Below, piece after piece: positions 3,243 to 23,651 of a stretch of DNA of 23,839 nucleotides. Below the pieces are notes generated by a model that saw nothing but the letters and a program-made list of their open reading frames with translations, had not been told where the DNA came from and ran no database searches. The position numbers were made by a program, and so were the translations under genes. The stretch is from a virus, in the IMG/VR virus record IMGVR_UViG_3300000101_003937, positions 3,463 through 27,301 of that record. One strand, 5' to 3'. Position 1 is the stretch's first letter. Each line of letters opens with the position of its first letter.

Positions 3243-3245
3243 ATG

Positions 3246-3839
3246 TTATACTCCTGCTCTGATTCTTATTGTGTAAAGAATCTCTAATCGTCTGTTATTA
3301 CTTTTTTGGATAGGGTGGAATATTAAATGAGTTAAGTATGATCCCGACTCTGTCATTAAACCAATTTCATCAAATACAAAACTGTCTGGATCATCAAAGT
3401 CCGATGCGTTGTCTGTTATTGGTCCACTTGAATCTGGTTCGTCATAATCTAATATAACTTTACATTCTAGGTCCGTGTATGGTTGATTACTTGAATCGTT
3501 TACAGTGAAGGTTACATCTTTTTGCAACGGTGTTACTGAAGCATCGCCACCTATACTTGTTGGACTAGGACTATATAATCCTGTACTAACTGCACCAGAT
3601 ACCTTTGCATCCTTGTATGTAACGTTTCCGTTTACGTCTAATGTTGTACCACCATAGCCAAATGCTAATTTGTCTATAGCAAATGTAGTATCGCCTTTCA
3701 GTGCATTTGCTACTGCTAATGCAAAGTTTTGAAAGTTTATTGCGTTGTATTTGTCAAGTAGAACTTTGCCCGAATCAGCATCTCTGATTAGAACGTGTCC
3801 TTCTACCTTAACGTTTGAGTTGTCGTTTAATGTTTTCAT
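3246..3839 (-). CDS. Virion structural protein (197 residues), fibre-module member
   Basis: Begins with MKTLNDNSNVKVEGHVLIRDADSGKVL, then NAINFQNFALAVANAL, a pattern I associate with small structural proteins beside fibre genes in marine T4-like phages. The remainder is beta-rich with acidic loops (YDEPDSSGPITDNASDFDDPDS) and ends in hydrophobic strands (HLIFHPIQKSNNRRLEILYTIRIRAGV). There is no enzymatic motif, signal peptide or membrane helix. It is the first gene after the giant gene and has its own late-type promoter box and two AGGAAT-type ribosome sites. It therefore leads the three-gene fibre unit 3839-1044. The role is inferred from position; the exact protein family is not named. Confidence 0.7.
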   Translation of the reverse strand: MKTLNDNSNVKVEGHVLIRDADSGKVLLDKYNAINFQNFALAVANALKGDTTFAIDKLAFGYGGTTLDVNGNVTYKDAKVSGAVSTGLYSPSPTSIGGDASVTPLQKDVTFTVNDSSNQPYTDLECKVILDYDEPDSSGPITDNASDFDDPDSFVFDEIGLMTESGSYLTHLIFHPIQKSNNRRLEILYTIRIRAGV

Positions 3840-3883: not shown

Positions 3884-6800
3884 TTATAATTCAATTCCCT
3901 TGCCAAACGTTTGCAACTCTTGTGCCTGTGTTGACCCTGGACTATTTAAAATTGTATCACTTAATTTATTATATTGATAATCGTTTGCATCTACAATACC
4001 TGTATATTCATTTACTGTTCCTACATCTCTATGAACTCTTTCTACTTGTTTTATATTTGCAAACGTAAGTTGTGTTTTGTCAACTTGTATTATTGAATCT
4101 CCAACACTTGCTAGCACTTTAAATGTTCCTGCTAGTTCTCGTTTTGTGATTCCCAATGTAGTACTGTCTACTACACTATATTCTATTAGCTCACCGTTTA
4201 CATAAGCAATACCAACATTATCAAATGCTGTTGTACTTGCTACAGTTATAGTTGTGCTATCTAATGTTAAAGGAGTAGTTGCAATAGTTGTTTCTTTTGC
4301 TTCTGTTAATGCGTAAGCACTAACAGTTCCATTAACATTACGTATGTGTGCAAATGTTCTTGAAGTGCTTGCATGTGTACTACCCGAAGCATTTGTCTGA
4401 ACATTTATTCTTAATAATTCTAGTGGTCTAACTTCTACTAAACTATTTCTGTTGTGTCCTTCATTTGTATAATTAAAATATGCTGGATCAACTTTTGGAG
4501 ATAATTTTGCAACTACACTATCATTGTTTAGTGGAGCAGTAACAAATGTTATTACTTGTCCTGCAATGCTCCAAGTATCTGTTGATTGCAGTATATTGTT
4601 TATTGTAATGTCTATTTCATATGTTACTCCTACATTAACATCTTGAGTTAATGTAAATGTATTTGCAGTTCCATCGCCTGTGAATGTTTGTGTTATAGGA
4701 TTACTAATTTCTGTATTGCCAAACCCAATGCCACTAACAGTATCTGTACTAGCATGGTCTGTAGTGAACCCACCACCATCGTATGTTGTAGCAGCAGTTT
4801 CATTCCATTCTGATTCTCCTTGTATTGTTACTGAAGGATAACCAAACACAGTATCAATATCAAATGGCTTCATAATTATTTTTGTAGTTGGAGATTCTGT
4901 TAACGTTAATCCAACTTCATCCATAGTAGTATTTCTCATAACCACAGTACTTGCTTTAGTATGGTAAGGTTTAATTTCTTGTATGTATCCTAGTACATTA
5001 TTAATTTTGTTTCTTGTATATTTTCTAGTAACTGTATCAAGTGTATTAGTAAACTCTAATTTGATATATGTTGTTTTTCTAATCCAATTTGTTTGTTCAA
5101 ACGTACTTAGTATGTAATGTATTACACTAAAGAAGAATGTATTCATTTTATCTGTGTTATATGAAACAAAGATGTCTTTGTGCAATGCTTCTATAATTAT
5201 TTCCCAATATCCTGCAATGTCTGCCGCATCATATAATCCCGAATCAAAGGACATAGAATCCCATCCACCAGTAGTAGTTAATAATTTTTCATCAAATGCT
5301 ATTGTGCCATTTTTCTTAAACACAAGTTCCCAAAGATTGGTATCAGTGTTATATGCATATGTTTCACTTGTATTAAGTTGCAATGCATCATTAAATACTG
5401 TCATTTTAACTACATGATGATAATCTAAATCAATTGAATCTAAATCCGAATACGCAGTAATAAATCTTGTATGATTTAATGTACCCGAGTATGATGCAGA
5501 TTTATAATCTGTATATTTCCATAAATTAGATGGAAAATTGTGTGCAACAAGTGTATTGTCCCATTTACCTAAGTACTCGCCTATTAAGTTAATGTTCTTT
5601 AATAACATATTAATTGTAATGATTGCATTTCTTCTTGCGTCAGTTATATCATTGAACCAGCTTTGTCCAATAGATAAATCATCTCCGTACTTGTTAAATT
5701 TATGTAATGTCTGATATGGAATTTTATTTGAGTTTGCATCTCTGCCACCAAAGTTCATTTTCATTCCACTTATGTAGTATTCAGGAATAGTATCACTGTC
5801 TTGTGCTATTACTGTCCATTCGTTATGAGATTTAAATTTGTCTCCGGCTTTATTAATTTGTAGCACAGTATTTTTATCTTCAACATAATAGTTAATATTG
5901 TCTATAATAAATTCTTTATCACTTATAACTGCAAACCAGCTAACTCCACTTCCAGTTGGGTCTTTGATAATATTTTCAACATCATATGCTGACAACGATC
6001 TATCATCTGAGATAGTTGTTTTGTTTTTAACCCAGTAATAATAAACAGTATCATATGAAGAAGTTTGTGTATTCCACTCTTCAATTGTTGTATAATAATA
6101 TTGTGTTTCTTTAGCTACCTGGTTGTATATAGAATATGCTACACCTGTAGCAACTGTACCAAATATCTCTTTGCCAAGTTTAACTGCTTCTGCATAATCA
6201 TCTGGAGCCACATTTGATTTAATCCATTCCCATACTGCTATTTCACTTCCAGGATACAACTGACCCCACAATGCAGATTTGTAAAATGAGTCACCCTGAT
6301 CGTAATCGTAATATCTTACTTTACTTATATCCCACCATCGTGTTCCTACTTGCTCAGGACCCCACGCAGCATCTTTGTCTAATAATTGTGTAGTGTCTGT
6401 TGAGGTATTATAAATTGCGTTATCATTAAAATTATTATAGTCTATATTTTTCTGTGCAATACCTGGTAATATTTTTCTCATTGGGTCCCATACTTCTAAC
6501 TGAACCTTAGCTTTGTTTTCTGCATGATTATAAATTACTATACTATCGATATCTTTATTTGTTGGCCTTTGTAGTGTCTGTCTTACTAATCCCTTACCTA
6601 CTTTGCTTGTTTCTGTTAGTATCTTCCAATCATACACATATGTTCCTTGTACGCCGTTTTTATCATTAACAAATAACATTGTATTAATTGGTAAGTTCCA
6701 ATGTGCCGTTAGTGCTGCCTCATCTACTTGTGGTGTATTTAAAAATCTTGTTGTTACTAGAGGCATTACTGAAACTGCATTACCGCATGCTTCAATATAT

Positions 6801-9800
6801 TCATCTATATAAAATACTTTATTAGTTGATCCTAATTTTGTTACTTTGTGTATACCATCAATGGTTGGTGTTGTAGTTGTATTTAATAGCTGTACATAAT
6901 CGCCAACACTTAACCCATGTGGTTCGTTTGTTGTAACTTCAGCATCATTTCCATCCTTACTAGATCGCCCTGCACATATTCCACAGTCTGACCCATCAGA
7001 ACTTTTAGTATATAATGGTGTATCTATTATTTGTGTAACTGTTCCTGTGCCCGATACTGTTGTACCAGTGGCTGTAAATCTAGTTAATACTGTATTAACG
7101 GATGCGCCTAGTGATGTAAAGTCTGTAGTCCCTACAGAACTGATTCTATAATCTTTGCCTATTACTAATGGAAGTGACAATCCTGTGTCAGGGTCTACAT
7201 GTGCTACACTAGATTTACGTAATGTTGTTTGTAATACATTCCATCCATAAAATTTTGTTGTAACTGTTTCTCTCGATTCAATTTCAAAATCACTATCATC
7301 TGTTATTTGTATATTGTAAATTGCAGGATCTTCGCTATTAATTGAAGTAGTTCCAAACTGTGCTGGATTCCAAACGTTTGCAACATTAACATCACTTGAC
7401 GTAATTGTTCCTGTTTCTAAACCTGCTATACTGTTAAAGTCTGTGTCGCCCATTGCTAAACTAGAACCTGTTGATGTTATTCGGATTGCTTGCCCAAATA
7501 CTGAAATTGTTACTTCGGTAATACCATTATTAACAAGTTCGGTTGCTATAGCATTCTTGGCACCTGTTGCGTCCATTGTTGTAGGAGTAGATACTCCTAC
7601 AGAAGTATATGTTCCTGGTGTGGCTGTATCACCTGGCAATCCCAAGTAAGTTAGAATATTAGTAGAGCCACCTAGTACTAAAGTTTTGTTGTTACTGGTA
7701 TTATTTGTTTTTGTAAGAACTAAATTTCCGCTACTTTCTGATGCAGTAATACTTACTAGGTTTGTAGCACTAGTGTTATTAATTTGTGTTACAACATCTG
7801 CTACTGTTAATGGCTGTGGTACTAAAGCGTTTGATGTTTCTTGTCCCTCTACTAAGTTACCAGTTGTTGGATATCCCAAATCTGCGTTGTCTGGATTGTC
7901 TTTTAATGTAATACTGTTTTCTGGATCTGCGTCTTGATATACAAATTCCATACTTTGTGTAACAATTCCATTAACAATAGAAGTTGTATTAACTGTTAAG
8001 CCAGATATATTATAAGCATCAATGTGACTCTTAATTTCACTAGCATTCATTGTTAATGGTGTGTGTGCTAAAGTAACAACAATATTAGATGTTCCTGTTC
8101 CTGGTGCAGATGTAAAAGTAACTGTTTGTCCAGTCTGAGAATAGTCAGCTGGCTCGGCTTGAGCTACACCGTCGACATCAATACCGTTAATAAAAAATCC
8201 ACCTGACGTTAATGACTGGCTTATAGTAAATGATGTTGTAGTTGTATCACCATTAAAGTTCTCAGTTATCTCGCCTGGTGTTGTATCAAAGTCTATTGGA
8301 TATTCTGTGTCAGTTGTAACTGTGTTGTTGTTAGCATCTAGTGTTGTGTTTCTAACAACAAAAGTAATATTTTTATTAGTAACTGGGTTAAGTTCTGCTG
8401 GTCCACTGTCTGCAATTAGTCTTGCAGGTCCTGTAACTGATGTAACATATTCGTCTTTGTCAAATATAATTGACTCTCCGTTTATTGTTAATGATTCCGA
8501 ATCAGTAAATGCAGTAAAACTTGATCCTGTTGCTATTATGTCTGGGTATACTGTGACTTGATTTTGTAATTCAAATTCCGGCATACCAGCAAGGTTAACT
8601 TTTGTTCCATATGGGAATGTTGGAGATGTTGTTAGTCCAGTTTCTTGTATAATATCTGTTACTTCTGTTAGCCCAGTAAAGTCAACACTACATTGCCATA
8701 GTTCGCCTTGATATCTAACTTTATCACCTTTCTTATAACTTGTTGTATTATTCCACGTTGGTATATTTGCATATTCGGCTGTGCTATTAAACACGTCACT
8801 TAAATAACTTGAATTTAGTACTTGGTAGTCTGATTCATTTCTCAATAACTCACCACCAGTAAGTATGTCGTTATCTGCATAAGCATAATCAACTGTATCA
8901 AATGTAATTGATTTATTGTTGACAATTTTATTGTCTGTTGCTATAATTACATTAGCCTCTGTATTAGAAGTATTTAATGATATAGTTTGAGGAGATGAAA
9001 TAATGTCACCCGATACAATTTCAATTTCAAGTGGGTCTTCAAAGTCGTCGTTGCCTAATGTAGACTGTCTAAACATGTATTCTTCAAATGCAGAAACTGT
9101 TGTTTCTCCGTTGTCGAGTATGTTAGATTTCCCTACATGTTCAACTGCACCACGTGTACCTTTTTCTTTTATTACACCCTGATGATAGTTAGTAAGTACG
9201 TTTTCGTTAATACCCAGGTTGCTAAGAAGTTGTCCTTCTGCATTTCCTATTGTTAAATCTTTTGCTTTTGAAAACGATTTGTTAAAATGGTCAACATCAG
9301 TTCTATATAAATTGTCAATGCTTTCTACTGCACTATCAAAGTTTTGGACAATGTAATCGCCCATAATTAAATAGCCAGGAGCTTTCTTTTCACCTGTCCA
9401 GTTTTGAGTTCGTTGTCCAGTAACTAATAAACGCACTGGTCCATTATTCTTAGTGTCATCAAAAATAGTGACTCCAAGTTTTGTTTTGTTTTCAAAAATT
9501 ATAATATGTTCATAATCTAAAATAGCACTAGTAATACTTCCAATAAAACTTTTGTCTTTTGTTTCAACTGAAACTGTTCCATCAATACGTTTAATACCTA
9601 AATCACTGTTTTCTATTTTCTTACCATTTTGTAATAAAATATTATTACTGTTATATTCTAATTGATTATATTCATACACATGTCCAGTGTCTGGTGTGAA
9701 TGATATTTCTCTACCAATTTGTAAAATATATCCTTCACCCTCTTTGGCAGTCAATGCCCAACCAACAAAGTCAGTAGCAGAACTATCGCCATCATATGTA

Positions 9801-12800
9801 ATTTTATATCCGGACGTTTCCATCCACTTCCAGTAACCACGTATAAAGTTATAAACATCTTGTAGCCTTTGAAATTCAGAATCGTATTCTACAACACTAG
9901 GTGTAGTTACAAATTTGTTATAACGTCTTACTGTTTGAGATGCAATATTTCGTGTAGTGTAATCTGTTGAACTTACTACATTTGGTTCATAGAATTTAAA
10001 TTCTCTTGCATTATTACTAACACCTGCAACTTTGTATCCAGAAGATGTTTTTGTGATTGTCACTGTACTTGCGGCTACTAAATCTGTAGTAGCACCTTTA
10101 TACATTTTAATATCAAAGTCGTCATCTCCTAAAACAAAATCTCCTGTTAAACTAGTTTCAGAAGAAATATTTAATAAGTGTTTGTTACTGAATCCACTTA
10201 ACTTAAATTGCAATTTAGTTGCTAAAGTATTATATAAATCATCTAACTCAACTCCAAAACTATTTCGAATCATATAGTTATATTGTGATTGTGATATTCC
10301 GTTTGCAACAAATGGGATAGATTTAAGTCTTGCATCTAAATCTATATTGGCTGCTAGTCCTGTTGTACCTACATATGAAATAATATGTTGACTAGTAAAA
10401 CTTAAACCTCTGTCTGTCATACTCAGTGCTGTAATTTTGTTATCACTGTTTAATGAATATACTGCTTTACCAAATGTGCTATAGTCATCATCTAGCATTG
10501 TAAAGTATCCGTCACTTTCTAATGTAGTAGGTGAACTTTTAACTGTAATCGAATCAATAACACTGTCATATACTTTACCTGGAGTCTTATAATAACATAT
10601 ATTGTTTCCTGGCAACATATCATTGTATTGATTTATGTTGTGTATTCCTGTATTGTTTTTTCTAAATATACCTGGTTGGAAAAAATCTGTCCATGCTTTA
10701 GCAGGATGTAATTTTAATACACCATCTACCATTATTGATTGACCTATTGCAGTTGACCTCCAATTAAATTCAACTGGACCCCAATCACCAAAGACAAACT
10801 CTTTTGCTTTTTCTATATCTGTTGGAATTCCCAAAACTAAATGAGGTAACTCTAACGTTCCTGTATCTGTGACGGGACACTTATTAGTAGTAGAGAAAGG
10901 CCAATAATACCTTGCATATTTTACTGATTGTGTTACTGGTTTGCCTGGTTCAGATATAATACCTTTTTTTAATGCGTCTAATAATGCTGTTCGTTTAGCA
11001 CCTGCTTTCCAACTATAATGTGTATCCCACCAAGTTGGCTTAAATGCATATCCTAGCATGTGCCAAGGAGTTATATGCGGTGTGCATGTTCCAAACAAAT
11101 ATGTATATGCACCTTTCCAATGTCCAGGTAATGAACTTAAAAATCCATCTGCAATTATTATACTACTGTAATTCCATGTAAACGGATCAGCAGCATCATA
11201 GTAATTGCTTAAAGTTAAACTTGTGATGTTATTTTCTGTTGCCCAATTTGAATAATATTTTTCTAAGTAATTGTTATAATCTGATAACGAATACCAAGTT
11301 GTTTTATGTTGACTTGGCAAATAATCAATATGTGATTTATATTTTTCTATTACAATATCATTATACATTTTATCTTGTTTAACTAGTCCAGCATATATGC
11401 GTTTTTCTATTTCATATATTACTGCATTAACAGGATCAAAGTTTGGTGCGTTTACGTTTAGTAGTTCACGGTTAGTTACATCAAATTGTGTACCATCGTG
11501 TGTATACAAAATATTATCATTTACTTGTGGCTGTGTACCGTAACCTAGTCCAAGTTTTACCATACTAGGTGGAATAAAATAATCATCATCCATATCAATA
11601 TAAAATACTTCTACTTGTGGTTGGGTTTTAAGACTATCAAATGCTGCATAGTTTAATGTGAGTGTAACAGTGTTACCAATAAAGGTATATTCAATATCCT
11701 TAACTAATGATCTTCTCTGTTGTCCATCTTGCTTTGCAGTACCGCTTGCACCAGATTGTGATGTTCTATTAGTAGCTACAAATACAGTTCCTGCATTGTT
11801 ATTAGCTGATCCAAGTAAAGTCCAATCTACGTTACCGGGTGTAACAATAGTATAAGTTTCTCCTGATATTAAATTACTATATTCAGTAACTTCTTTAATA
11901 GCCTCAGTTAGATAAACATATACATGATCTCTTATATTTGTATCACCGTTAAATATGAATCTTGTTTGAAAAGTTTTAGAGAACTCAGAAATGTTGTCTT
12001 CTTCTAATATCCATTTTTGTGTATTTTCCATATCAATGGAAAGCATGTTTGATTCTTTATATAATCCATGGTCTCTTTGATTTCTAGTTACTTCGTTAAC
12101 TGCTTTGTTAGCCAAGTCTTGCACATTTAAAACTCCAGTTGTAGCATACACTCTTCTTGCTTGTGCTGCCACCCTTGTTCTAAATGCTATAAATTCTTTT
12201 GCTTGTTCGAGTAATGCGCCTGTAATACTTAACTCATTGTCTGCATATGTGATATCATGCATAATGCTAGTATCTTCGTGCATAAAGATTGTACCACCGT
12301 AACAAGAAGTACGTGGTATGCTTGCAAAATTATTTTCTCCATATGTCTTTCCATCAAATCCTGGAGTTGCATTTAATTTACTTTTCCAGTGATCCATTGT
12401 TTCACTAATTGTAAATGTTGTAATAGCTTTATTTTCTGAGTTATGTTTATGCACATCTGGCATACTTGTGTTGTTTGTTTCATTTAATGAATCGTTATTT
12501 CTCCAATATATATCAACTAAATCATCTGATGCAAATATACTTTTATCAATAGTAATACTAGTTGCAGTTGTTGTTATATTAGAATATGCTATTGCTTCTC
12601 CATTAAGTGTAACATTGTAAAAACTATCATCCCATTTATCAGTTACAATAAACGATTGCAATACTTCTCCATTTATAAGAATACTAAAATGCTTATTGTT
12701 GCTCGTCGAGCTTGTTTGAATAGCTATGTTAGTACCTGGTCTTGTGATTGTAATTTCTGGTATAGTACTAGTTTCAATATTTACACCATGTGACATAATT

Positions 12801-14932
12801 GTTATAGTTGAATCTGTTAGATCTTGAAATATAATTTGAGATGATGTTCCAACCTTATATAATTCATTTGGTTGTGATAATGTAAAATTTGATCCATCTT
12901 TGCTATTGATTGTAATAGCCGGTTTATTATTATCTTTGTGAATTATATATTCTTGTGTAGGGCGCCAGTTGTTATACCCAAGTGGAATAACTAAATCTGT
13001 ATCTGTTGATTCTACGTTGTATTGTTTGTGTTCTAATGCGCCAGATAATTCTCCTGCTGGTACGTATACTGTTTTTAGTACATCAGCCTGTTTAAACAAA
13101 TTATAGCCTTTTTGATCTTTTGAAAATGTTCCTCTAGAGTTTTCTGCATTTGCATACGTAGTATAATAATTACTTGTGATTATAAAGTTTTCAAATTCAT
13201 ATTCAGCACCCTTGGGTGAATCTTTATAACATAGTGCAAATCCTAATTCAGGATCATTTGCACCAGTTCCTTCTTTAAATCCAAATATTCTATCACCAAC
13301 AAATCTTTTTCCATTAATACTTTCTAGTGGTGTGCCTTGTGTATTATAAAATCTATATAATGGATACTGATTAGTTTTTGTTTTTTGTTGTGCAAGTTCC
13401 ACTTTACCACTTGTAAAATATCCATCTGCTTCAACCCATAAACTGTTTGTACTTTCAAGTACAGAGAATGTATCACCTTCAATTAATGAACTAGTTGATC
13501 CTCCCACTGTATGAATTAAATCATCGGTGTCGTCTATGTAAACATAAGTTTTGCCTGTAGTGGTTGGCTCGTTGCCAGTTGTTACTGCTTCATCAATTAC
13601 ACCCTTGTATTCTGCACCAGTAACATTCTCAGATTGATTCCATAAATGTAATCCTGGATTATATTCTATAATAGGCCTGTGTGCTCTTCTTTTAATATCT
13701 CTTATTTCACTAAAATCATAATATGGCATTAGTGTTGCTAACTTGCTAATAGTACTTCTATTAACCCAATGGTTACTTCTGCTCCAAGCTGTTTGCGGTG
13801 GATCATTTTTAGCAATAGTAATGTAATCTTTTAATGGCATCACTGGATGTCCATTATCATACATTAAATTGTTATTAGGTGTAATATAAGACCCAGTTAC
13901 TTTTGCTTTTTCATCATCAGTGCCTTCAGTTAATACTACTTCTGGGTTTGATGCTATTGTGTACTGAACAGAGTATGGCTCTACAAGGTCTGTTCCTGTT
14001 CCCCATCCTGTTGTAAATTTTATTAAAGTATATCCAGTAAGTGAATCAGAATGTGTATCTTTATCAGTAAATTTAAAACCATCAAACACAGGCAGTCTGT
14101 CAACATTTTGATTATATGCCTGTACAACTTCTGCTGGTGTTCTGCCCGCTACCCAATAAGCACTGTTTGTATTTGGTTCAACACGTAATACTGTATTGTT
14201 TACATATGTACCATCTGTGTTTTCGGAATGCTTAACTGCATTGTTGTATACTCTATTTCCACTTACATCTAAGTATTCATATAACTTAAAATTGTTTATT
14301 GTGCCTGCTATAATAAATGTTTTATCTAATACATCTACATGCCAACCTGCTCCTTTAAACTTAATAAGCATCTGGTTTTCAACTGTGAATTCATTGTTAT
14401 CATCAAGTATAGTTGGCCAGCCATTAATTTCTATATCTGTTATTGGATTCTTAATTGCCCCTGTCCATGTACTTTCGTATATAGGTAATTCCTCTACCCA
14501 ATGATAGTTTATATAATTTACGAACTTATCAAAATCAATTGGCGGACTATAACTATATCTACTAGACGAATATGCTGAATTATAATTATATGTACTAAAA
14601 TTATTATCAATAGCATGTGCAATATCATCAAATGCTAGCATTTTAGTTATGTCTTTATTTTTATTATAAGAAACAATAGCAGGTGTTAATTCATTTTCAG
14701 TTCTAATATTTTTACGAAATTTAGGTTCTATGTATGTGTCAGTTGCTTTTGCAACCAATCCATCTCTGCTTCCAACAAATCCATTAATATCTTCTAAAGG
14801 TCCTTTTGAAACCATCTGATCCATTGTACTGTCTAACCAACTTTTGTTTAGTTCAGTTTGAAATACACTTGGTAAGAATTTACTAGTTTTTATATTGTTA
14901 ACTGGATTTTGTCCTGATTTCTTTTTAGCCAT
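3884..14932 (-). CDS. Giant virion structural protein (3682 residues), baseplate/tail-associated
   Basis: This belongs to the very large structural proteins found beside gp6 in marine T4-like phages. Hallmarks in order: KFLPSVFQTELNKSWLDSTMDQMV (about 17-40); RRAHRPIIEYNPGLHLWN (about 412-430); HWKGAYTYLFGT with PWHMLGYAFKPTWWDTHY (about 1268-1305); YIQEIKPYHTK (about 3316). Added beta modules are a DWTxLGA module twice (1024-1068, 2592-2635), an FNGDTTTTSFTI module (about 2224-2290), three tandem repeats (2292-2508), an EVTTNEPHGLSVGDYV module (about 2662-2710), FTGDGTANTFTL (about 3416-3478) and TTITVASTTAFDNV (about 3557-3600). There is no membrane helix or obvious enzyme motif. The ATG overlaps the gp6 stop by one base (TAATG) and has an AGGA site, so it is coupled to gp6. 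A role as a baseplate-peripheral or fibre-attachment protein is inferred from position. It is not recognisably T4 gp7 or gp10. Confidence 0.85.
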   Translation of the reverse strand: MAKKKSGQNPVNNIKTSKFLPSVFQTELNKSWLDSTMDQMVSKGPLEDINGFVGSRDGLVAKATDTYIEPKFRKNIRTENELTPAIVSYNKNKDITKMLAFDDIAHAIDNNFSTYNYNSAYSSSRYSYSPPIDFDKFVNYINYHWVEELPIYESTWTGAIKNPITDIEINGWPTILDDNNEFTVENQMLIKFKGAGWHVDVLDKTFIIAGTINNFKLYEYLDVSGNRVYNNAVKHSENTDGTYVNNTVLRVEPNTNSAYWVAGRTPAEVVQAYNQNVDRLPVFDGFKFTDKDTHSDSLTGYTLIKFTTGWGTGTDLVEPYSVQYTIASNPEVVLTEGTDDEKAKVTGSYITPNNNLMYDNGHPVMPLKDYITIAKNDPPQTAWSRSNHWVNRSTISKLATLMPYYDFSEIRDIKRRAHRPIIEYNPGLHLWNQSENVTGAEYKGVIDEAVTTGNEPTTTGKTYVYIDDTDDLIHTVGGSTSSLIEGDTFSVLESTNSLWVEADGYFTSGKVELAQQKTKTNQYPLYRFYNTQGTPLESINGKRFVGDRIFGFKEGTGANDPELGFALCYKDSPKGAEYEFENFIITSNYYTTYANAENSRGTFSKDQKGYNLFKQADVLKTVYVPAGELSGALEHKQYNVESTDTDLVIPLGYNNWRPTQEYIIHKDNNKPAITINSKDGSNFTLSQPNELYKVGTSSQIIFQDLTDSTITIMSHGVNIETSTIPEITITRPGTNIAIQTSSTSNNKHFSILINGEVLQSFIVTDKWDDSFYNVTLNGEAIAYSNITTTATSITIDKSIFASDDLVDIYWRNNDSLNETNNTSMPDVHKHNSENKAITTFTISETMDHWKSKLNATPGFDGKTYGENNFASIPRTSCYGGTIFMHEDTSIMHDITYADNELSITGALLEQAKEFIAFRTRVAAQARRVYATTGVLNVQDLANKAVNEVTRNQRDHGLYKESNMLSIDMENTQKWILEEDNISEFSKTFQTRFIFNGDTNIRDHVYVYLTEAIKEVTEYSNLISGETYTIVTPGNVDWTLLGSANNNAGTVFVATNRTSQSGASGTAKQDGQQRRSLVKDIEYTFIGNTVTLTLNYAAFDSLKTQPQVEVFYIDMDDDYFIPPSMVKLGLGYGTQPQVNDNILYTHDGTQFDVTNRELLNVNAPNFDPVNAVIYEIEKRIYAGLVKQDKMYNDIVIEKYKSHIDYLPSQHKTTWYSLSDYNNYLEKYYSNWATENNITSLTLSNYYDAADPFTWNYSSIIIADGFLSSLPGHWKGAYTYLFGTCTPHITPWHMLGYAFKPTWWDTHYSWKAGAKRTALLDALKKGIISEPGKPVTQSVKYARYYWPFSTTNKCPVTDTGTLELPHLVLGIPTDIEKAKEFVFGDWGPVEFNWRSTAIGQSIMVDGVLKLHPAKAWTDFFQPGIFRKNNTGIHNINQYNDMLPGNNICYYKTPGKVYDSVIDSITVKSSPTTLESDGYFTMLDDDYSTFGKAVYSLNSDNKITALSMTDRGLSFTSQHIISYVGTTGLAANIDLDARLKSIPFVANGISQSQYNYMIRNSFGVELDDLYNTLATKLQFKLSGFSNKHLLNISSETSLTGDFVLGDDDFDIKMYKGATTDLVAASTVTITKTSSGYKVAGVSNNAREFKFYEPNVVSSTDYTTRNIASQTVRRYNKFVTTPSVVEYDSEFQRLQDVYNFIRGYWKWMETSGYKITYDGDSSATDFVGWALTAKEGEGYILQIGREISFTPDTGHVYEYNQLEYNSNNILLQNGKKIENSDLGIKRIDGTVSVETKDKSFIGSITSAILDYEHIIIFENKTKLGVTIFDDTKNNGPVRLLVTGQRTQNWTGEKKAPGYLIMGDYIVQNFDSAVESIDNLYRTDVDHFNKSFSKAKDLTIGNAEGQLLSNLGINENVLTNYHQGVIKEKGTRGAVEHVGKSNILDNGETTVSAFEEYMFRQSTLGNDDFEDPLEIEIVSGDIISSPQTISLNTSNTEANVIIATDNKIVNNKSITFDTVDYAYADNDILTGGELLRNESDYQVLNSSYLSDVFNSTAEYANIPTWNNTTSYKKGDKVRYQGELWQCSVDFTGLTEVTDIIQETGLTTSPTFPYGTKVNLAGMPEFELQNQVTVYPDIIATGSSFTAFTDSESLTINGESIIFDKDEYVTSVTGPARLIADSGPAELNPVTNKNITFVVRNTTLDANNNTVTTDTEYPIDFDTTPGEITENFNGDTTTTSFTISQSLTSGGFFINGIDVDGVAQAEPADYSQTGQTVTFTSAPGTGTSNIVVTLAHTPLTMNASEIKSHIDAYNISGLTVNTTSIVNGIVTQSMEFVYQDADPENSITLKDNPDNADLGYPTTGNLVEGQETSNALVPQPLTVADVVTQINNTSATNLVSITASESSGNLVLTKTNNTSNNKTLVLGGSTNILTYLGLPGDTATPGTYTSVGVSTPTTMDATGAKNAIATELVNNGITEVTISVFGQAIRITSTGSSLAMGDTDFNSIAGLETGTITSSDVNVANVWNPAQFGTTSINSEDPAIYNIQITDDSDFEIESRETVTTKFYGWNVLQTTLRKSSVAHVDPDTGLSLPLVIGKDYRISSVGTTDFTSLGASVNTVLTRFTATGTTVSGTGTVTQIIDTPLYTKSSDGSDCGICAGRSSKDGNDAEVTTNEPHGLSVGDYVQLLNTTTTPTIDGIHKVTKLGSTNKVFYIDEYIEACGNAVSVMPLVTTRFLNTPQVDEAALTAHWNLPINTMLFVNDKNGVQGTYVYDWKILTETSKVGKGLVRQTLQRPTNKDIDSIVIYNHAENKAKVQLEVWDPMRKILPGIAQKNIDYNNFNDNAIYNTSTDTTQLLDKDAAWGPEQVGTRWWDISKVRYYDYDQGDSFYKSALWGQLYPGSEIAVWEWIKSNVAPDDYAEAVKLGKEIFGTVATGVAYSIYNQVAKETQYYYTTIEEWNTQTSSYDTVYYYWVKNKTTISDDRSLSAYDVENIIKDPTGSGVSWFAVISDKEFIIDNINYYVEDKNTVLQINKAGDKFKSHNEWTVIAQDSDTIPEYYISGMKMNFGGRDANSNKIPYQTLHKFNKYGDDLSIGQSWFNDITDARRNAIITINMLLKNINLIGEYLGKWDNTLVAHNFPSNLWKYTDYKSASYSGTLNHTRFITAYSDLDSIDLDYHHVVKMTVFNDALQLNTSETYAYNTDTNLWELVFKKNGTIAFDEKLLTTTGGWDSMSFDSGLYDAADIAGYWEIIIEALHKDIFVSYNTDKMNTFFFSVIHYILSTFEQTNWIRKTTYIKLEFTNTLDTVTRKYTRNKINNVLGYIQEIKPYHTKASTVVMRNTTMDEVGLTLTESPTTKIIMKPFDIDTVFGYPSVTIQGESEWNETAATTYDGGGFTTDHASTDTVSGIGFGNTEISNPITQTFTGDGTANTFTLTQDVNVGVTYEIDITINNILQSTDTWSIAGQVITFVTAPLNNDSVVAKLSPKVDPAYFNYTNEGHNRNSLVEVRPLELLRINVQTNASGSTHASTSRTFAHIRNVNGTVSAYALTEAKETTIATTPLTLDSTTITVASTTAFDNVGIAYVNGELIEYSVVDSTTLGITKRELAGTFKVLASVGDSIIQVDKTQLTFANIKQVERVHRDVGTVNEYTGIVDANDYQYNKLSDTILNSPGSTQAQELQTFGKGIEL
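7028..7159 (-). repeat. Copy 2 of the 45-residue module in the giant protein (residues 2592-2635)
   Basis: Reads GKDYRISSVGTTDFTSLGAS, then RFTATG and VSGTGTVTQI, colinear with the copy at residues 1024-1068. The two copies are more than 1500 residues apart, so this is a dispersed module, not a tandem array. Confidence 0.7.
7409..8059 (-). repeat. Three tandem degenerate repeats in the giant protein (residues 2292-2508)
   Basis: The copies begin PLTMNASEIKSHID (2292), PLTVADVVTQINN (2374) and PTTMDATGAKNAIA (2450), so the periods are 82 and 76 residues; the third copy is 59 residues long. Each has the opening P-(L/T)-T-(M/V), an amphipathic helix, a strand ending in a variable turn, and a closing hydrophobic-Gly motif (DLGYPTTG, YLGLPGD, IAGLETG). 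The helix-strand-LGL layout resembles flagellin/hook-associated IN motifs. That similarity is by eye. Confidence 0.6.
7581..7600. repeat. 9-base inverted repeat inside the giant gene
   Basis: GTAGGAGTA (7581-7589) and TACTCCTAC (7592-7600) are exact inverted arms around two bases. On the mRNA this would fold into an 8-base-pair stem with a four-base loop. It sits just before the in-frame ATG codon M2453 at the start of the third tandem repeat. It may be a coincidence of the codons for VGVSTPT. Confidence 0.6.
11729..11863 (-). repeat. Copy 1 of a 45-residue module in the giant protein (residues 1024-1068)
   Basis: Reads GETYTIVTPGNVDWTLLGSA, then a N-rich turn, GTVFVATN and an S/G-rich end with GASGTAKQ. 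It aligns over its whole length with residues 2592-2635 of the same protein (Y-x-I, G-x-x-D-(W/F)-T-x-LGA, (V/R)F-x-AT, SG-x-GT). The same short pattern is familiar from other marine phage structural proteins (recollection, not a search). Confidence 0.7.
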
Positions 14933-17900
14933 TAGTATGTTCCTGCTTTAATATTTTCGTCTGTTATATTTGTAATAATATCTATATCATTAACATTTAT
15001 ATCTGGTATGATAAGTTCGTCTGTGTTAGGTTTGTATTCAAACATATCTCCAAATACACTGCCTGAACTTTGAGGTACAATAACAAAACTACTTAGCAGT
15101 CCTGGAAGTTGTTTATGTACGTAAGCTGCTAACTCTGTGAAGTAAAAAGTTTCACCAAAGTCCCAATTACTAGAATCAAAGAAATCATCTATTGCAGTAA
15201 CTACTTTTGATTTTAAATCACTATCAGTAATAGTTGCACCAAATAATTTAATTATTCTAAATCTTGCTCTAAGATGTGGTTCAGCCAAACTACCAAATAG
15301 AGGTTTATATTTTACTGGTTTATATACAATAGTATCACTGATTGCTTTTTTATCTATTACGCCACTAAATTGTGTGCCCAGTTGATAACTTGTTGGCGGC
15401 AATGGTTCTTCTGCTACCGTACCTTTAAGATAATTTTTATATTGTGTGTCGTATGTTTTTGATAAAGCAAACACATCAATAATATTTGTAAAACTAGGAT
15501 CAACTACTTGATTATCAGCTGCTATATGTTCCCATTCAAATTTTAAATTGTCTACTCCGTTGTATCCATCTACTGTTGAAGAACCAATTACGTTTTTAAA
15601 TACTTCTGGATCATCTGGTCTGCTGTCAGCATTCCCATCTATTAGTGTCAATCTATAATTAGTTGAATCTGAATTCTCAAATCCATATACATAAAATTTA
15701 CCTAATGATGTTAAAAAATTACCATTGGCTCCTACTAAACTAATTATATCTCGTTTTGCCTTTTTAGTATAAGTTCCTATTTCAACTTCGTTTTGAATAT
15801 TTCCTAATTTAACTGAACTGCTTGTAAAGTTAAATCTTATTGTTCTCAAATAAATGTCGTATGTTGACCCAGTAAAATTAAAATGTGCTATCCAACTTAA
15901 ATCGTTATCAGAAAAATCTAGATCGTCAAACCTAGCACTTGGATCAAAAGGACTACTTGGAGAGCTATCAATTAACCATGCTCTGTTTTTAAAATCATAT
16001 TTTAAAGAAAATGTTCTTTTTGATTTTATGTATGAAATAAGTAATGCTCTTTCATCGTTTGAGAAATTTCTCGACAACGCAGGGTATATAATTTCTATAG
16101 TACTTTGATCTGGAACAGTTGCGTCTAACACAATAGAACCCGTACCATCTGCACGTTTTCCTGTAGGTTCACCTGCGTTTGTTCCTGTACCTTCAATCCC
16201 TAATCCATGAGAGAAAGTATCAATAACTTTTGCCCATATAAATGTATTGTCTTCTTTTCTAAATTTAATTAAAGCTCCTGGTGTAAAATATTTCATATAT
16301 CCAGATGCCGTGCTACCTACTCTAGTAACTGCACTTGGTGTTCCAGACAACAAGTATCCAGTTTTAATACCACTTGCAGTTGTACTAGGACTTTGCCAAG
16401 TATATATTGAGTTAGCAAGCACGTTTGCATTACTGTCCATGTGACCTTCTGCATCTGCTAATTCATAAAATGAATCTGCAAAGTTTTTATAATATAAATT
16501 TACAAACTCATCATTGTGTAATAATTCTTTAACATATTTTTCGTAAGTTATTTCTGCTGTATCTGTTGATGCAGTTGATATCTGTACTAGATTATCTTTT
16601 GCAAGTAGTGTTGCATCATTGCTTGCCATGTATAAGTTACTATATGTTCCTGTAGGATCATAAAACTTTGAGTATCTGCTGTGTCCACTAAATGTTCTAT
16701 TAATACTTTTTATTTTAATAATACCACCGTTAGTAGTACCTAGCATAGTATTGTAGTCTTGAGCAGTAATCATTCTGTCTTGACTAGCATAATTTCTTGG
16801 AGCATTTTCTTTTATTTCGTCTATACTCTCATTTGAACTTGCAGTTGATACTGATTGTTTAAGTTGTAATTTAAATATGGCTGTGTATGTATTGCCATCA
16901 TATCCTGTATAATTTACTTGTACTTTTTTACTTGGAATGTCGTCTGGTCTTAAAACATATGTACTGTTGACACTTGGTCTGTACCAAACTCTAACAACAT
17001 CTTTTGGAATATTACCAAATGTATCATCAGGAAATAAAATTGATATTTGATTATCTTTTCTTGTCTTTACACTGAATATATTTCTTTCACCAGTTGAAAG
17101 GTTATTATAAATTACATTACTGTTTACATCTGTTACTTTAGTCCAATGCTTTACAACATTTCCTGTATCGTTAATGTTTTGCACCCACACATCTGTTGTA
17201 TTAATATTATCTACATCAACGTCTAATGAAGTACTGTTAATTGGTGTACTAATAGGAAAGTCTTGATATGCAAGTGTTCCTTGTTTAACTCCAAAGAAGA
17301 ATCCTGTATTAACACTATTAATGCCTTTGCCATCTTGTTTGAAGTATATTCCAAAACTTCCTACTGGGTCAGGAGCCTTTTCTATAAATGTTCCATTCTG
17401 AGTGTCGTAGTCACTGCTTATAACATTAAATGATTTTGATGCTCCATTAACAGAACCGTTAATATCAAATTTGATTTGGTTTGGTTCATTGTTTAGATCA
17501 TAAAATTCTGTTTTTATATTGTTAACTACTACTGCTTTTTTTGGACTACCGTATTGATTACTATTTTGTAATACTGAATTTACAATGGTAATAAAATCAT
17601 CTAAGTTGTTTACATTATTTGATATTTCGTATTTAATTTCATTTCCACCTAAACTAACTCCTGCACTACCAATAACTGGTTCGTTTGTTGTTACACTTGT
17701 TACTTTCATTTCACCGTACGCTGGCACATTACGTCTTGGCTGATAGCCTAAAAATTCTGCTAACTTGTAAACACTCTCTTGTCTTTCTGCGGTACTTAAA
17801 AAATTGTTCCTCGCATTCATATCTACTCGATATGCTAAGTTGTGACCAAATTGTGCAACTACATCTAGTAGTGAAACAAATTCGGATGATTCTACCCAGT

Positions 17901-18060
17901 CATTGTAGTTTTCTGGATAATTGTTGCGTACATAGTCGACCATTGCAGTTCTAATAGTATCAAAGTCAAATGCTTGAAAGTTTGCATTGATATATGATTC
18001 GTATACAACTGTAAAGTCCTCTGCCGCAAATAGTTTATTTTGTCTTGATTTCTGTGCCAT
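14932..18060 (-). CDS. 6: Baseplate wedge protein gp6-like (1042 residues)
   Basis: In T4, gp6 forms the inner ring that joins the baseplate wedges and binds gp25, gp53 and gp7. Here the N-terminus (FDFDTIRTAMVDYVRNNYPENYNDWVESSEFVSLLDVVAQFGHNLAYRVDMNARNNFLSTAERQESVYKLAEFLGYQPRR, about 33-112) is the conserved gp6 start of marine T4-like phages. Residues about 414-440 (ENAPRNYASQDRMITAQDYNTML) match the baseplate J / gp6 core signature. The C-terminal part (about 850-1042) contains DPSFTNIIDVF and an acidic tail. It is about 380 residues longer than T4 gp6 (660). The ATG is two bases after the gp25 stop and lacks a clear Shine-Dalgarno sequence, so translation is probably coupled to gp25. Its stop overlaps the giant gene start by one base. 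Confidence 0.9.
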   Translation of the reverse strand: MAQKSRQNKLFAAEDFTVVYESYINANFQAFDFDTIRTAMVDYVRNNYPENYNDWVESSEFVSLLDVVAQFGHNLAYRVDMNARNNFLSTAERQESVYKLAEFLGYQPRRNVPAYGEMKVTSVTTNEPVIGSAGVSLGGNEIKYEISNNVNNLDDFITIVNSVLQNSNQYGSPKKAVVVNNIKTEFYDLNNEPNQIKFDINGSVNGASKSFNVISSDYDTQNGTFIEKAPDPVGSFGIYFKQDGKGINSVNTGFFFGVKQGTLAYQDFPISTPINSTSLDVDVDNINTTDVWVQNINDTGNVVKHWTKVTDVNSNVIYNNLSTGERNIFSVKTRKDNQISILFPDDTFGNIPKDVVRVWYRPSVNSTYVLRPDDIPSKKVQVNYTGYDGNTYTAIFKLQLKQSVSTASSNESIDEIKENAPRNYASQDRMITAQDYNTMLGTTNGGIIKIKSINRTFSGHSRYSKFYDPTGTYSNLYMASNDATLLAKDNLVQISTASTDTAEITYEKYVKELLHNDEFVNLYYKNFADSFYELADAEGHMDSNANVLANSIYTWQSPSTTASGIKTGYLLSGTPSAVTRVGSTASGYMKYFTPGALIKFRKEDNTFIWAKVIDTFSHGLGIEGTGTNAGEPTGKRADGTGSIVLDATVPDQSTIEIIYPALSRNFSNDERALLISYIKSKRTFSLKYDFKNRAWLIDSSPSSPFDPSARFDDLDFSDNDLSWIAHFNFTGSTYDIYLRTIRFNFTSSSVKLGNIQNEVEIGTYTKKAKRDIISLVGANGNFLTSLGKFYVYGFENSDSTNYRLTLIDGNADSRPDDPEVFKNVIGSSTVDGYNGVDNLKFEWEHIAADNQVVDPSFTNIIDVFALSKTYDTQYKNYLKGTVAEEPLPPTSYQLGTQFSGVIDKKAISDTIVYKPVKYKPLFGSLAEPHLRARFRIIKLFGATITDSDLKSKVVTAIDDFFDSSNWDFGETFYFTELAAYVHKQLPGLLSSFVIVPQSSGSVFGDMFEYKPNTDELIIPDINVNDIDIITNITDENIKAGTY

Positions 18061-18062
18061 AA

Positions 18063-18446
18063 TTAAAACTCTGCGTTTTCTGTAAATTCTCTGTCGAATT
18101 TAATCTGCAACTCTGTTGCAGTTGTTTCTGGTAAGTAAGTTAGTTTTACATTAACTGTTACCGAATGTGTATCGTGTTCAACTCTTATATCTGAATTGTT
18201 TACTTCAAACCTAGGATCATAACTTATTACTGTATTAACTTCTTCTTCAATAGCATCTTGTGTTTCATCATCTAGCGGTTCAAACACATATAATTCTAAG
18301 TCGCAACCAAATTCTGGGTCAGACCATTTCTCACCCTTGCGGATTTTAAAATGATTCAGTAGGTCTTGTTTGGCTAATTCTAAGCCACTCAGACGGTTAC
18401 TTGTATAGGGTTGATTAATAGTTGTGTATCCAAATATATTGCTCAT
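18063..18446 (-). CDS. 25: Baseplate wedge protein gp25
   Basis: The 127-residue protein matches the GPW/gp25 family in length and pattern. It has SGLELAKQDLLNHFKIRKGEKWSDPEFGCDL (about 20-50), the DPEFG(C/T)DL core that contacts gp6, FEPLDDETQDAIEEEVNTVISYDPR, and a final beta region TVNVKLTYLPETTATELQIKFDREF. The family is often labelled lysozyme-like but has a structural role: gp25 joins gp6 and the sheath at the wedge core. The start at 18446 fits the T4 gp25 N-terminus. No Shine-Dalgarno is visible, and the late-type promoter box ends only five bases upstream. Confidence 0.93.
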   Translation of the reverse strand: MSNIFGYTTINQPYTSNRLSGLELAKQDLLNHFKIRKGEKWSDPEFGCDLELYVFEPLDDETQDAIEEEVNTVISYDPRFEVNNSDIRVEHDTHSVTVNVKLTYLPETTATELQIKFDREFTENAEF

Positions 18447-18459: not shown

Positions 18460-18480
18460 CAAAAGATTAACTAAGTAGAT
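18452..18480 (-). repeat. Direct repeat, downstream copy (after the HNH gene)
   Basis: Minus strand: ATCTACTTAGTTAA, seven bases, CATAAATA. It aligns without gaps to 19088-19060 with 22 of 29 matches (13/14, 1/7, 8/8). It contains the TAG stop of the HNH gene. In another frame it reads CTA CTT AGT TAA, the same Leu-Leu-Ser-stop that ends the lysozyme-like gene upstream of HNH. Confidence 0.6.
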
Positions 18481-19025
18481 AATGGTTCTATAATTAGCTT
18501 ATCTTCTTGCCAATGTATGTACTTTTGCCAAGCTGCATCGGGTATTCTGAGTGTATGATGCTGGTAAGCATAGTTTATTTGGTACCACGAAGGGTGTGTT
18601 GGTCGTTGCATAGGTAAAGGATATAAGCTATCACCTTTCTTTACATTGCATGGACCACATGCAGTAACACTATTTTCCCATGTTAGTCTTCCACCTTTTG
18701 ACTTTGGAATAACATGATCAATTGTTAAGTCGGCATAGGCAAACCTATCGCCACAGTATTGGCAACAGTATTTGTCTCTGACATATAAATTTCTACGAGT
18801 GAATTTTGCTTTGGAGGGTTGTTTGTGATAAGTGTTAAGCATAATAATGCTTGGGTATGGAATAGTTACTCTCGGTGACCGGAGAAACTCATTTTCATAA
18901 TTTTTAATTACGTGTACTTTCTCAGCCCACATGGCCTTAATCGCATCTTGCCAACTGACTGTGCTAAGTGGCATTTGTGATAATGGTTGCCCATCAGCAT
19001 TAAGTAGTAAAACGCTTTTATTCAA
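18471..19025 (-). CDS. Free-standing HNH endonuclease (184 residues, TTG start)
   Basis: A small HNH nuclease of the bacterial/phage type whose N-terminus reads NKSVLLLNADGQPLSQMPLSTVSWQDAIKAM. The nuclease core has zinc pairs C88-x-x-C91 and C123-x-x-C126, the catalytic D103-H104 in LTIDHVIPKSKGG, and N118 in TWENSVTACGPCN. The Zn-Cys arrangement is intact, so it should be active. I choose TTG at 19025: it has AAGGA at the right distance, gives the family N-terminus (MNKSVLLLNADGQPL), and leaves room for a late-type promoter. An upstream in-frame ATG at 19115 would overlap the previous gene by 41 bases and add 30 residues without family resemblance. It lies between the lysozyme-like gene and gp25, flanked by direct repeats, and is not part of the baseplate. 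It is probably a homing-type selfish gene. Confidence 0.88.
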   Translation of the reverse strand: MNKSVLLLNADGQPLSQMPLSTVSWQDAIKAMWAEKVHVIKNYENEFLRSPRVTIPYPSIIMLNTYHKQPSKAKFTRRNLYVRDKYCCQYCGDRFAYADLTIDHVIPKSKGGRLTWENSVTACGPCNVKKGDSLYPLPMQRPTHPSWYQINYAYQHHTLRIPDAAWQKYIHWQEDKLIIEPLST

Positions 19026-19058
19026 GATAAAAATTCCTTGTATTATATTAGTATTTAA

Positions 19059-19067
19059 ATATTTATG
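19059..19067 (-). promoter_or_regulatory. Late-type promoter box CATAAATAT before the HNH gene
   Basis: CATAAATAT (19067-19059) lies in the 49-base gap after the lysozyme-like gene. A start about six bases downstream of the CATAAATA core gives a leader of about 29 bases with AAGGA before the TTG at 19025. The box is the 3' part of the upstream direct-repeat copy. Confidence 0.6.
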
Positions 19068-19088
19068 TAGTGAGTTAACTGAGTAGAT
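19060..19088 (-). repeat. Direct repeat, upstream copy (end of lysozyme-like gene plus promoter box)
   Basis: Minus strand: ATCTACTCAGTTAA, seven bases, CATAAATA. The first part is coding: it carries the last codons CTA CTC AGT and the TAA stop of the 235-residue gene. Partner copy at 18480-18452, same internal spacing. Confidence 0.6.
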
Positions 19089-19782
19089 TTGCAAGAATTC
19101 TTTTCCTGCTCTCAATCATATTTGGTAGAAACCTGTTTGTTTCTGCATAGTAAACATATTCTGCTTGCTTTTTTTGTATGGCGTTTAATTGATTTGAACT
19201 ATATTCTTTTACGAGAGATTGTATACCTTGCTCTGCTATCAGAGTTCTGTCTTTATTTGTTCCATAATCTCCTAGCATCATTATCTTTGCGTCTGTTTGT
19301 CTACTTAGTCTATCACTTCCACTTAGCGTAAATGCAGTAGCTATGTAGTTCCATTTTTTATCATTAATAAACTCTAATAATCTAAATTTCCTAACAGAAG
19401 TTCCTACTTGGTCAAATTTGCCTGTATCTGCATATAAACTTAACATAGCATCATATTGTGACTGTGTCATTGCTGATAGTGGAAATAATTTTTTAAATCT
19501 TTTTTCTTTGTCTTTGAATTCTTCTATCCAAATTATATATGCATCATTTTCTGTTAGGCCTTCACCATCAATTCCAACAGTTCCCTTGTATCCAATTACT
19601 GAATTTTTTGCATATCCCGTCCATCCAATAGTTCTAAGTTTAAAATTTATTAACTTAGTACTTGCTTCAAGTTCAGATAAGTTTACTAATGTACTGGTTG
19701 CAGTGTTATCAATTATAGAAAATAAACTATAATCTATTAGATTTTTATTATCAATTGTTGATTGTAAATTGAAACTTGGCAT
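19075..19782 (-). CDS. GH24 lysozyme-like tail protein, probably inactive (235 residues)
   Basis: Residues about 43-178 follow the phage T4 lysozyme (GH24) layout: LRTIGWTGYAKNSVIGYKGTVG; then GEGLTENDA (T4 GVITKDEA); then MTQSQYDAMLSLYADTGKF with the usual Q-x-D-A-x-x-S-L pattern; FINDKKWNYIATAF (T4 QQKRWDEAAVNL); and RLSRQTDAKIMMLGDYG. At the place of catalytic E11 (T4 IDEGLRL) I read INFKLRT, and no clear match to D20 or T26 is seen. A structural or regulatory role is therefore more likely than hydrolysis. The N-terminal 40 residues and the helical C-terminus (180-235) are extra. Its ATG overlaps the gp5 stop (TAATG) with an AAGGA site. The fold call is by hand alignment, and the family name is moderately sure. 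Confidence 0.6.
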   Translation of the reverse strand: MPSFNLQSTIDNKNLIDYSLFSIIDNTATSTLVNLSELEASTKLINFKLRTIGWTGYAKNSVIGYKGTVGIDGEGLTENDAYIIWIEEFKDKEKRFKKLFPLSAMTQSQYDAMLSLYADTGKFDQVGTSVRKFRLLEFINDKKWNYIATAFTLSGSDRLSRQTDAKIMMLGDYGTNKDRTLIAEQGIQSLVKEYSSNQLNAIQKKQAEYVYYAETNRFLPNMIESRKRILANLLS

Positions 19783-23366: not shown

Positions 23367-23651
23367 TTATGAAAACCTTACAGGTACGTTAATTTTTATT
23401 CCCGTTTTAAAATCTAAAATTGGGTCTACTAATTCATCTTGATTGAATAGTGCAAACACCCACCATAAATTTGCATTACCATATAATTCGTATGCTAACA
23501 AGTCTGGTTTTTCTTCGTGCTTTGCTTCTACTGTAATACTAGTAGTTGTTGTATTTTGTATATCTATGTTATCCACATTTAATATGTCTAAGTATTGTTT
23601 ATTAATAATTTGTGTATTTCTATACAAACTATCTGTACCATAATCTGCCAT
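23367..23651 (-). CDS. 53: Baseplate wedge protein gp53-like (94 residues)
   Basis: T4 gp53 clamps neighbouring wedges around gp6 and gp25 and has a LysM-like fold. The 94-residue protein here, against 196 in T4, carries the marine gp53 pattern: RNTQIINKQYLDILN, then PDLLAYELYGNANLWWVFALFNQDELVDPILDFKTGIKINVP. The YG-x-x-x-LWWVFA motif is at about 57-67 and the I-x-V-P end at about 87-90, as in LysM-type tail proteins. The start ATG overlaps the previous stop (TAATG) with a GGGAGGA site. Its position before the hub and gp5 matches the T4 gene order. Confidence 0.83.
   Translation of the reverse strand: MADYGTDSLYRNTQIINKQYLDILNVDNIDIQNTTTTSITVEAKHEEKPDLLAYELYGNANLWWVFALFNQDELVDPILDFKTGIKINVPVRFS

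Follow-up and report, generated by a model that had tools for sequence, protein, structure and literature searches.

What does a protein of 3682 residues do in a phage particle when its gene lies among those of baseplate wedge proteins, and where along its chain has it grown? The window analysed here, a 23,839-nucleotide section of a 31.8 kb virus record (IMG/VR IMGVR_UViG_3300000101_003937), carries on its minus strand an ATG-started ORF that runs from 14932 to 3884 uninterrupted by stops and takes up 11,049 of the 23,839 bases (46.3%), in agreement with the 46% given by the first-pass annotation, which had been made from the letters alone. The product has a computed mass of 409 kDa and a computed pI of 4.8. 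This giant is real, modular and well conserved, and neither its size nor its skeleton is peculiar to the window phage.

A family of giants encoded behind gp6-like genes

The frame is not a chance one, because its product matches the 'virion structural protein' profile phrog_10938 (profile length 3324) in four stretches with an E-value of 1.6e-181, and because an open frame of 2792-4817 amino acids is kept among relatives at ~23-98% identity. Separate segments of the giant likewise have phrog_10938 as their best match. Judged by its sequence, the protein belongs to an already known family of giants in the baseplates of very large tailed phages. A tblastn search retrieved 57-60 sequenced phage records at ~23-32% identity over parts, nearly all of them jumbo myophages (of Klebsiella, Pseudomonas, Erwinia, Salmonella, Escherichia, Agrobacterium, Salicola and other hosts); comparison of the gene with phage records by megablast gave no match. 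The family, as assigned by profile and tblastn, includes RaK2 gp465, CBB gp236, 121Q gp582, PA5oct gp355, SCTP-2 gp140 and Atu_ph07 gp180, which are ~3320-4450 residues long and, like the window giant, encoded directly after a gp6-like gene, but which share only the above ~23-32% identity with it over parts.

A scan of viral contigs yielded 59 loci, which were picked via residues 1301-1900 of the giant, so that relatives without that part would be missed. Two of these contigs (L002 and L003) encode a giant of equal length that is 98.6% identical. The 33 full-length family proteins measure 2792-4817 residues (median 3476), nine of them being longer than the window protein, and the ORF of a further relative (L027) already has 4891 codons though it is cut by the locus end. 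The size of the giant is therefore ordinary for its family, and the exceptional length first ascribed to it, which is mostly skeleton, does not hold up. The giants of 4486-4891 codons (L036, L040, L057, L027) contain inserted stretches of as much as several hundred residues beyond the point corresponding to window residue 3480.

The ORF immediately upstream of the giant is gp6-like in all 55 readable loci (~800-1480 codons, some truncated at contig ends), with a gap of −57 to +56 nt, and is itself preceded by a gp25-like ORF in nearly all of them. The order gp25, gp6-like, giant is found in PA5oct, CBB and 121Q and, by position, in RaK2; in Atu_ph07, a gp6-like gene directly precedes the giant. 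The window gp6-like protein is linked to T4 gp6 by hhalign (probability 82, E = 1.1e-5). In terms of gene order (gp6-gp7-gp8 in T4, J then I in P2, 47 then 48 in Mu), the giant occupies the place of T4 gp7, XM1 gp17, P2 gpI and Mu gp48, directly after the gp6-like gene.

Homologues of the giant are virion proteins. CBB_236 was found in CBB virions by mass spectrometry with 21 peptides (PMC5259590), and the sequence record of PA5oct notes gp355 as a virion protein identified by ESI-MS/MS. In phAPEC6, the 381.9 kDa gp245, detected with 17 peptides, adjoins the wedge protein gp244 (PMC7247149); it is probably the same gene. These findings and the wedge-gene neighbours bear out the baseplate setting and virion nature that the first-pass annotation had proposed. 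The sources for CBB, PA5oct and phAPEC6 label the giants as structural or hypothetical.

The remaining genes of the window (Table 1) add several minor observations. The HNH endonuclease ORF overlaps the next upstream ORF by 41 nt and likely encodes a free-standing homing-type enzyme; in 121Q, an ORF labelled 'group I intron associated' lies near the same spot, at the gp25-gp6 junction. Residues 3-196 of the protein in hub position match endolysin/transglycosylase families and the following part matches the virion family phrog_11190, which by sequence makes it a predicted fusion of a cell-wall enzyme to a hub-position protein; the adjacent gp5-like OB protein is without a recognised lysozyme. 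The cut ORF at 3-635 looks glycosyltransferase-like by eye and has no PHROG match. In RaK2, CBB and 121Q, the giant gene is followed directly by a ClpA-like ATPase gene of opposite strand.

Table 1 Features of the window, with residue numbers referring to the giant protein
Feature	Position	Strand	Basis
ORF downstream of the giant, followed by further ORFs	3246..3839	-	phrog_11259
Putative giant wedge protein, PHROG 10938 family	3884..14932	-	ORF, profile match, tblastn relatives
Module C, residues 3547-3598	4139..4294	-	profiles
Insertion 3, second module B copy, residues 3405-3480	4493..4720	-	profiles, realignment
Skeleton block 4, residues 2728-3360, YIQEIKPYHTK near end	4853..6751	-	alignment, conservation, AlphaFold2 model
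Small beta-barrel, residues 2640-2727	6752..7015	-	AlphaFold2 model; VIA Z 9.2 and 8.7
Insertion hot site, residues 2573-2639	7016..7216	-	profiles, realignment
Variable Ser/Thr-rich beta region common to close relatives, residues 2085-2572	7217..8680	-	composition, conservation, profiles
Module B copy 1, in the variable Ser/Thr-rich region, residues 2225-2278	8099..8260	-	profiles
CBM_5_12 (chitin-binding type 3-like) element, residues 2057-2084	8681..8764	-	Pfam 3.4e-6
Skeleton block 3, residues 1081-2056, with PWHMLGYAFKPTWW and KGT...E.WMF region (~1923-1955)	8765..11692	-	alignment, conservation
Insertion 1, residues 1011-1068, with module A (1021-1057)	11729..11902	-	profiles, realignment
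Skeleton block 2, residues 361-1010	11903..13852	-	conservation
81-residue presence/absence block, residues 433-513	13394..13636	-	realignment
Skeleton block 1, residues 1-240, LPxxFxT start	14213..14932	-	alignment, conservation
gp6-like baseplate wedge protein, directly upstream of the giant	14932..18060	-	phrog_10646 1.8e-253
gp25-like wedge/sheath initiator	18063..18446	-	phrog_261 9.3e-20
HNH endonuclease, between gp25-like and next upstream ORF	18471..19115	-	phrog_16726 2.3e-34
ORF without assignment	19075..19782	-	neighbour list
gp5-like hub (OB domain)	19782..20990	-	phrog_13211 1e-27; Pfam Phage_base_V
Transglycosylase-containing protein in hub position	20992..23364	-	endolysin/transglycosylase and phrog_11190 matches
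gp53-like wedge protein	23367..23651	-	phrog_7145 1.5e-23

A conserved skeleton with mapped insertion sites

Alignment of the 33 full-length proteins resolves the giant into a conserved, Trp/Gly/Pro-rich skeleton (residues ~1-240, 361-1000, 1081-1440, 1521-2080 and 2640-3360) and variable islands (241-360, 1001-1080, 1441-1520, 2081-2640 and 3361 onward). The skeleton totals ~2700 residues, near the length of the shortest relative. The four motifs that had been quoted as its hallmarks, KFLPSVFQ (residue 18), RAHRPIIEYNP (416), PWHMLGYAFKPTWW (1289) and YIQEIKPYHTK (3316), occur once each and all fall within conserved blocks, as proposed. At ~2200-2700 and 3400-3600, Ser and Thr are enriched and charged residues depleted.

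In an AlphaFold2 model of residues 2640-3400 (mean pLDDT 74.8), a small barrel is formed at 2640-2727, and the best viral matches of the model as a whole include the same protein in Atu_ph07 and are otherwise mostly uncharacterised phage proteins. The barrel, which was matched in 32 giant ORFs, i.e. in nearly all relatives, resembles in VIA the barrel of endosialidases and the FCCH domain of E1 (Z 8.7-9.2, ~75 residues for endosialidases). Because many middling matches cover the same range, we regard it as a common barrel arrangement, with phage endosialidases still at the top. The predicted likeness to the endosialidase beta-barrel (endoNF, K1F, phi92) or FCCH comes with 19% identity and, in contrast to phage endosialidases, concerns a single small domain with no catalytic domain; it represents a shared fold alone and not evidence of sialic acid binding. 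The model of residues 1081-2080 (pLDDT 68.7, with low confidence in the helical KGT region) gave a best Z of 4.6 and no PDB match in Foldseek and VIA, and a PDB sequence search with three giant-family profiles returned nothing credible and no solved structure of any relative.

Five elements were followed through the family with iterated profiles, and realignment with six relatives at 54-60% identity gave clean boundaries for the insertions. Two of the elements keep their place in distant relatives: the CBM_5_12 element (27.4 bits versus a gathering cut-off of 26.2, with 25 of 44 profile positions covered) stays near residue 2070 in most relatives and module C near 3573 in 18 of the 33 proteins, and because these places are shared with distant relatives, both elements are taken to be old. 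At 1011-1068, the six relatives have a turn of 4-5 residues instead; the site at 2573-2639 is occupied by module A (2589-2625) in the window and by module B in L010, the other five having a short loop; and residues 3405-3480 are a clean 76-residue insertion missing from all six. Module B (GDG type) is found at 2250 in all close relatives, a second copy, at 3442, being confined to the window lineage. Module A (TDFT type) lies at 1021-1057 and 2589-2625 in the window giant and at three other places in that of L009. The presence of module A at two places and of a second module B sets the window giant apart from its closest relatives. The block at 433-513 is cleanly missing in L007 and L012 and present in L009, L004, L008 and L010. 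Single family members show weak Pfam DUF2460 and Phage_T7_tail matches in the N-terminal part, which we infer to be linked to module B, carried there by some relatives.

The three clean insertions uphold the proposal that small beta modules were added to the skeleton, with some redrawing of the map. Within the span first marked at 2190-2720, only 2573-2639 is a lineage-specific insertion, 2190-2570 being common to close relatives and 2640-2727 being the barrel of nearly all relatives; within 3410-3640, the insertion at 3405-3480 stood, but the part at 3547-3598 is fixed across much of the family; and the insertion at 1011-1068 and the block at 433-513 had been overlooked. Homologues equal in length and with every module in a matching position, which had been named as the observation that would speak against recent gain, were encountered only among the 98.6% identical contigs (in L003, every module is at the identical place). 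As relatives at 54-60% identity are without the three insertions, lineage-specific gain, or repeated loss, stands; the polarity towards gain follows from parsimony in this small clade, in which loss could have recurred. A preference of insertion points for predicted coil found no support (12 of 19 versus a 58% background, p = 0.43, in an alignment blurred at such divergence).

The probable place of the giant in the baseplate

The giant is probably a large peripheral baseplate-wedge protein that takes the gp7 position in a myophage distantly related to T4 and the RaK2-type jumbo phages. In T4, XM1, P2 and Mu, the product of the gene after gp6 is the presumed partner of a gp6-type dimer, and the same is presumed for the giant. 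The XM1 gp7 orthologue gp17, to which tail spikes attach, has 242 residues compared to 1032 in T4 (PMC10457771), and the gp7 position therefore tolerates large changes in length; the window giant has ~3.6 times the length of T4 gp7 and 15 times that of XM1 gp17, and the giants may by analogy represent the opposite extreme. No similarity to T4 gp7 was detectable in sequence or profiles, although divergence may hide homology: hhalign of every giant segment against T4 gp7, gp8, gp9, gp10, gp11 and gp12 was negative, whereas the same method linked the gp6-like neighbour to T4 gp6. Because homology to gp7 could not be shown, our claim is that the giant works in place of gp7, and not that it is gp7.

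Two further candidate links were rejected. A match to the C-terminal domain III of T4 gp6 at residues 1869-1894, seen in 5 of 28 family members with a best Pfam E-value of 0.0047, scored 25.8 in hhalign, with top scores of 27.7 and 25.0 among 60 shuffled comparisons; it is therefore treated as not above chance. The KGT...E.WMF pattern, which we take to recall gpI/gp7, was supported as a signature of these proteins by none of the tests. Scans with P2 gpI and Mu gp48 returned mostly near-identical copies that were useless for profiles.

The following arrangement is consistent with the gp7 position. A few copies of the giant (six under gp7 stoichiometry) would bind the gp6-like dimer; a protein of gp7 type would do so with one copy per wedge and with an N-terminal helix-turn-helix that enters the (gp6)2-gp7 core bundle. 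The conserved ~2700-residue scaffold would build the outer wedge, carry peripheral proteins and relay a receptor signal to the inner ring. The small beta modules, some at the fixed CBM, barrel and module C positions and some at a handful of variable sites, would decorate the exposed surface, where they may bind sugars or partner proteins.

The large size of the giant and its position right after gp6 could also be explained if several T4 wedge proteins (gp7, gp8, gp10 and others) were fused into a single chain, and a T4-like gp8 or gp10 was not recognised downstream within the window. We consider such a fusion improbable, as no segment has profile similarity to any of gp7 to gp12 and PA5oct has a separate gp10-like-annotated gene downstream of its giant. 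A fibre-like or whisker protein that stands out from baseplate or tail shaft, such as the hairy phages CBB and phAPEC6 possess, would fit the unusual whiskers and fibres of RaK2-type phages (PMC5259590, PMC7247149), the carbohydrate-binding-like element and endosialidase-like barrel of the family, and the occurrence in it of a module weakly like the N-terminal domain of the T7 tail fibre. Against this reading, and against the fibre-like arm suggested by the first-pass annotation, the giant has no collagen-like run, a self-BLAST found no internal repeats, and no fibre or spike fold was matched except by the 88-residue barrel. The skeleton is conserved and rich in Trp, Gly and Pro, the gene is fixed directly behind gp6 in all readable loci, and RaK2 encodes its long-tail-fibre proteins in a cluster of their own, gp526-gp534 (PMC10253068), all of which makes a fibre or whisker unlikely. 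A tape measure protein was rejected, as the modelled parts consist of beta structure, coil and short helices, are not mostly helical, and the gene lies in the wedge cluster.

In jumbo phages, the giants belong to the largest proteins of the virion, and even very distant phages retain them behind gp6. Their reading as likely gp7 counterparts offers a concrete and testable location for proteins without an assigned role in the cited sources.

Module A beyond the giants

The family of giants is already known; what is new here are the mapped insertion sites, at which the giants have grown, and the broad distribution of module A, a small mini-domain that is common in environmental phages and is missed by Pfam and PHROGs, neither of which matches it. 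Its motif, GxxYxIxxVGTTDFTxxGAxxNxxGxxFxATGxGxGTG, occurs in the window at 7058-7168 and 11762-11872. A pattern scan of viral contigs gave at least 600 matches, at least 506 of them confirmed. The best 80 loci contain 95 ORFs with 143 copies, which after masking fall into 25 host-protein clusters; this count may be too high because of fragments and shadow ORFs. Among the hosts that could be named are a tail sheath, a head-tail adaptor, a tail spike-like protein, a tail protein of phrog_376 and a fibre J-like protein. The module is also carried by the gp6-like neighbour of the giant, at one site in L009 and L010 and at another in L036 and L040; the window's own gp6-like protein is without it.

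Recent duplication as the source of the copies was rejected. In the window, the DNA identity is 53% for the module A pair and 50% for the module B pair, and module A copies of the same contig are no more alike (0.596) than those of different contigs (0.587). Module A may well be an undescribed, promiscuous mini-domain of environmental phages, 44 residues long, that unrelated virion proteins (wedge, sheath, adaptor, spike and fibre) acquired by repeated insertion from a shared diverse pool and not by within-genome copying, the giants being one platform among these. Ig-like domains are known promiscuous small beta modules of phage structural proteins. Module A resembles them in its occurrence at variable places in many unrelated virion proteins, and differs in having only ~44 residues, a motif of its own (GTTDFT..GA..N..G) and no Pfam match.

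That the modules are neutral or selfish-like sequences carried by recombination, with no binding function, is compatible with a gp7-position giant. The spread over ~25 host clusters of the best 80 loci, tail sheath and head-tail adaptor included, the equal diversity of copies within and between genomes, and insertion sites that are empty in close relatives with the remainder of the protein intact would all be expected of such passengers. The residue pattern of module A, however, is retained in very divergent copies, which suggests selection on its fold, and the CBM and barrel elements each keep a fixed place; we therefore hold the passenger reading to be possible but rather doubtful.

With the reduced sensitivity of short queries, module A was detected in 3 of 50,697 sequenced phage records. 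The same limit applies to its detection at 22 loci of bacterial genomes, most of them assembled from metagenomes, where it may belong to prophages or to phage contigs in bins. The bacterial-genome loci include the candidate phyla Woesebacteria, Nomurabacteria, Roizmanbacteria and Gottesmanbacteria, as well as Planctomycetes and Spirochaetes.
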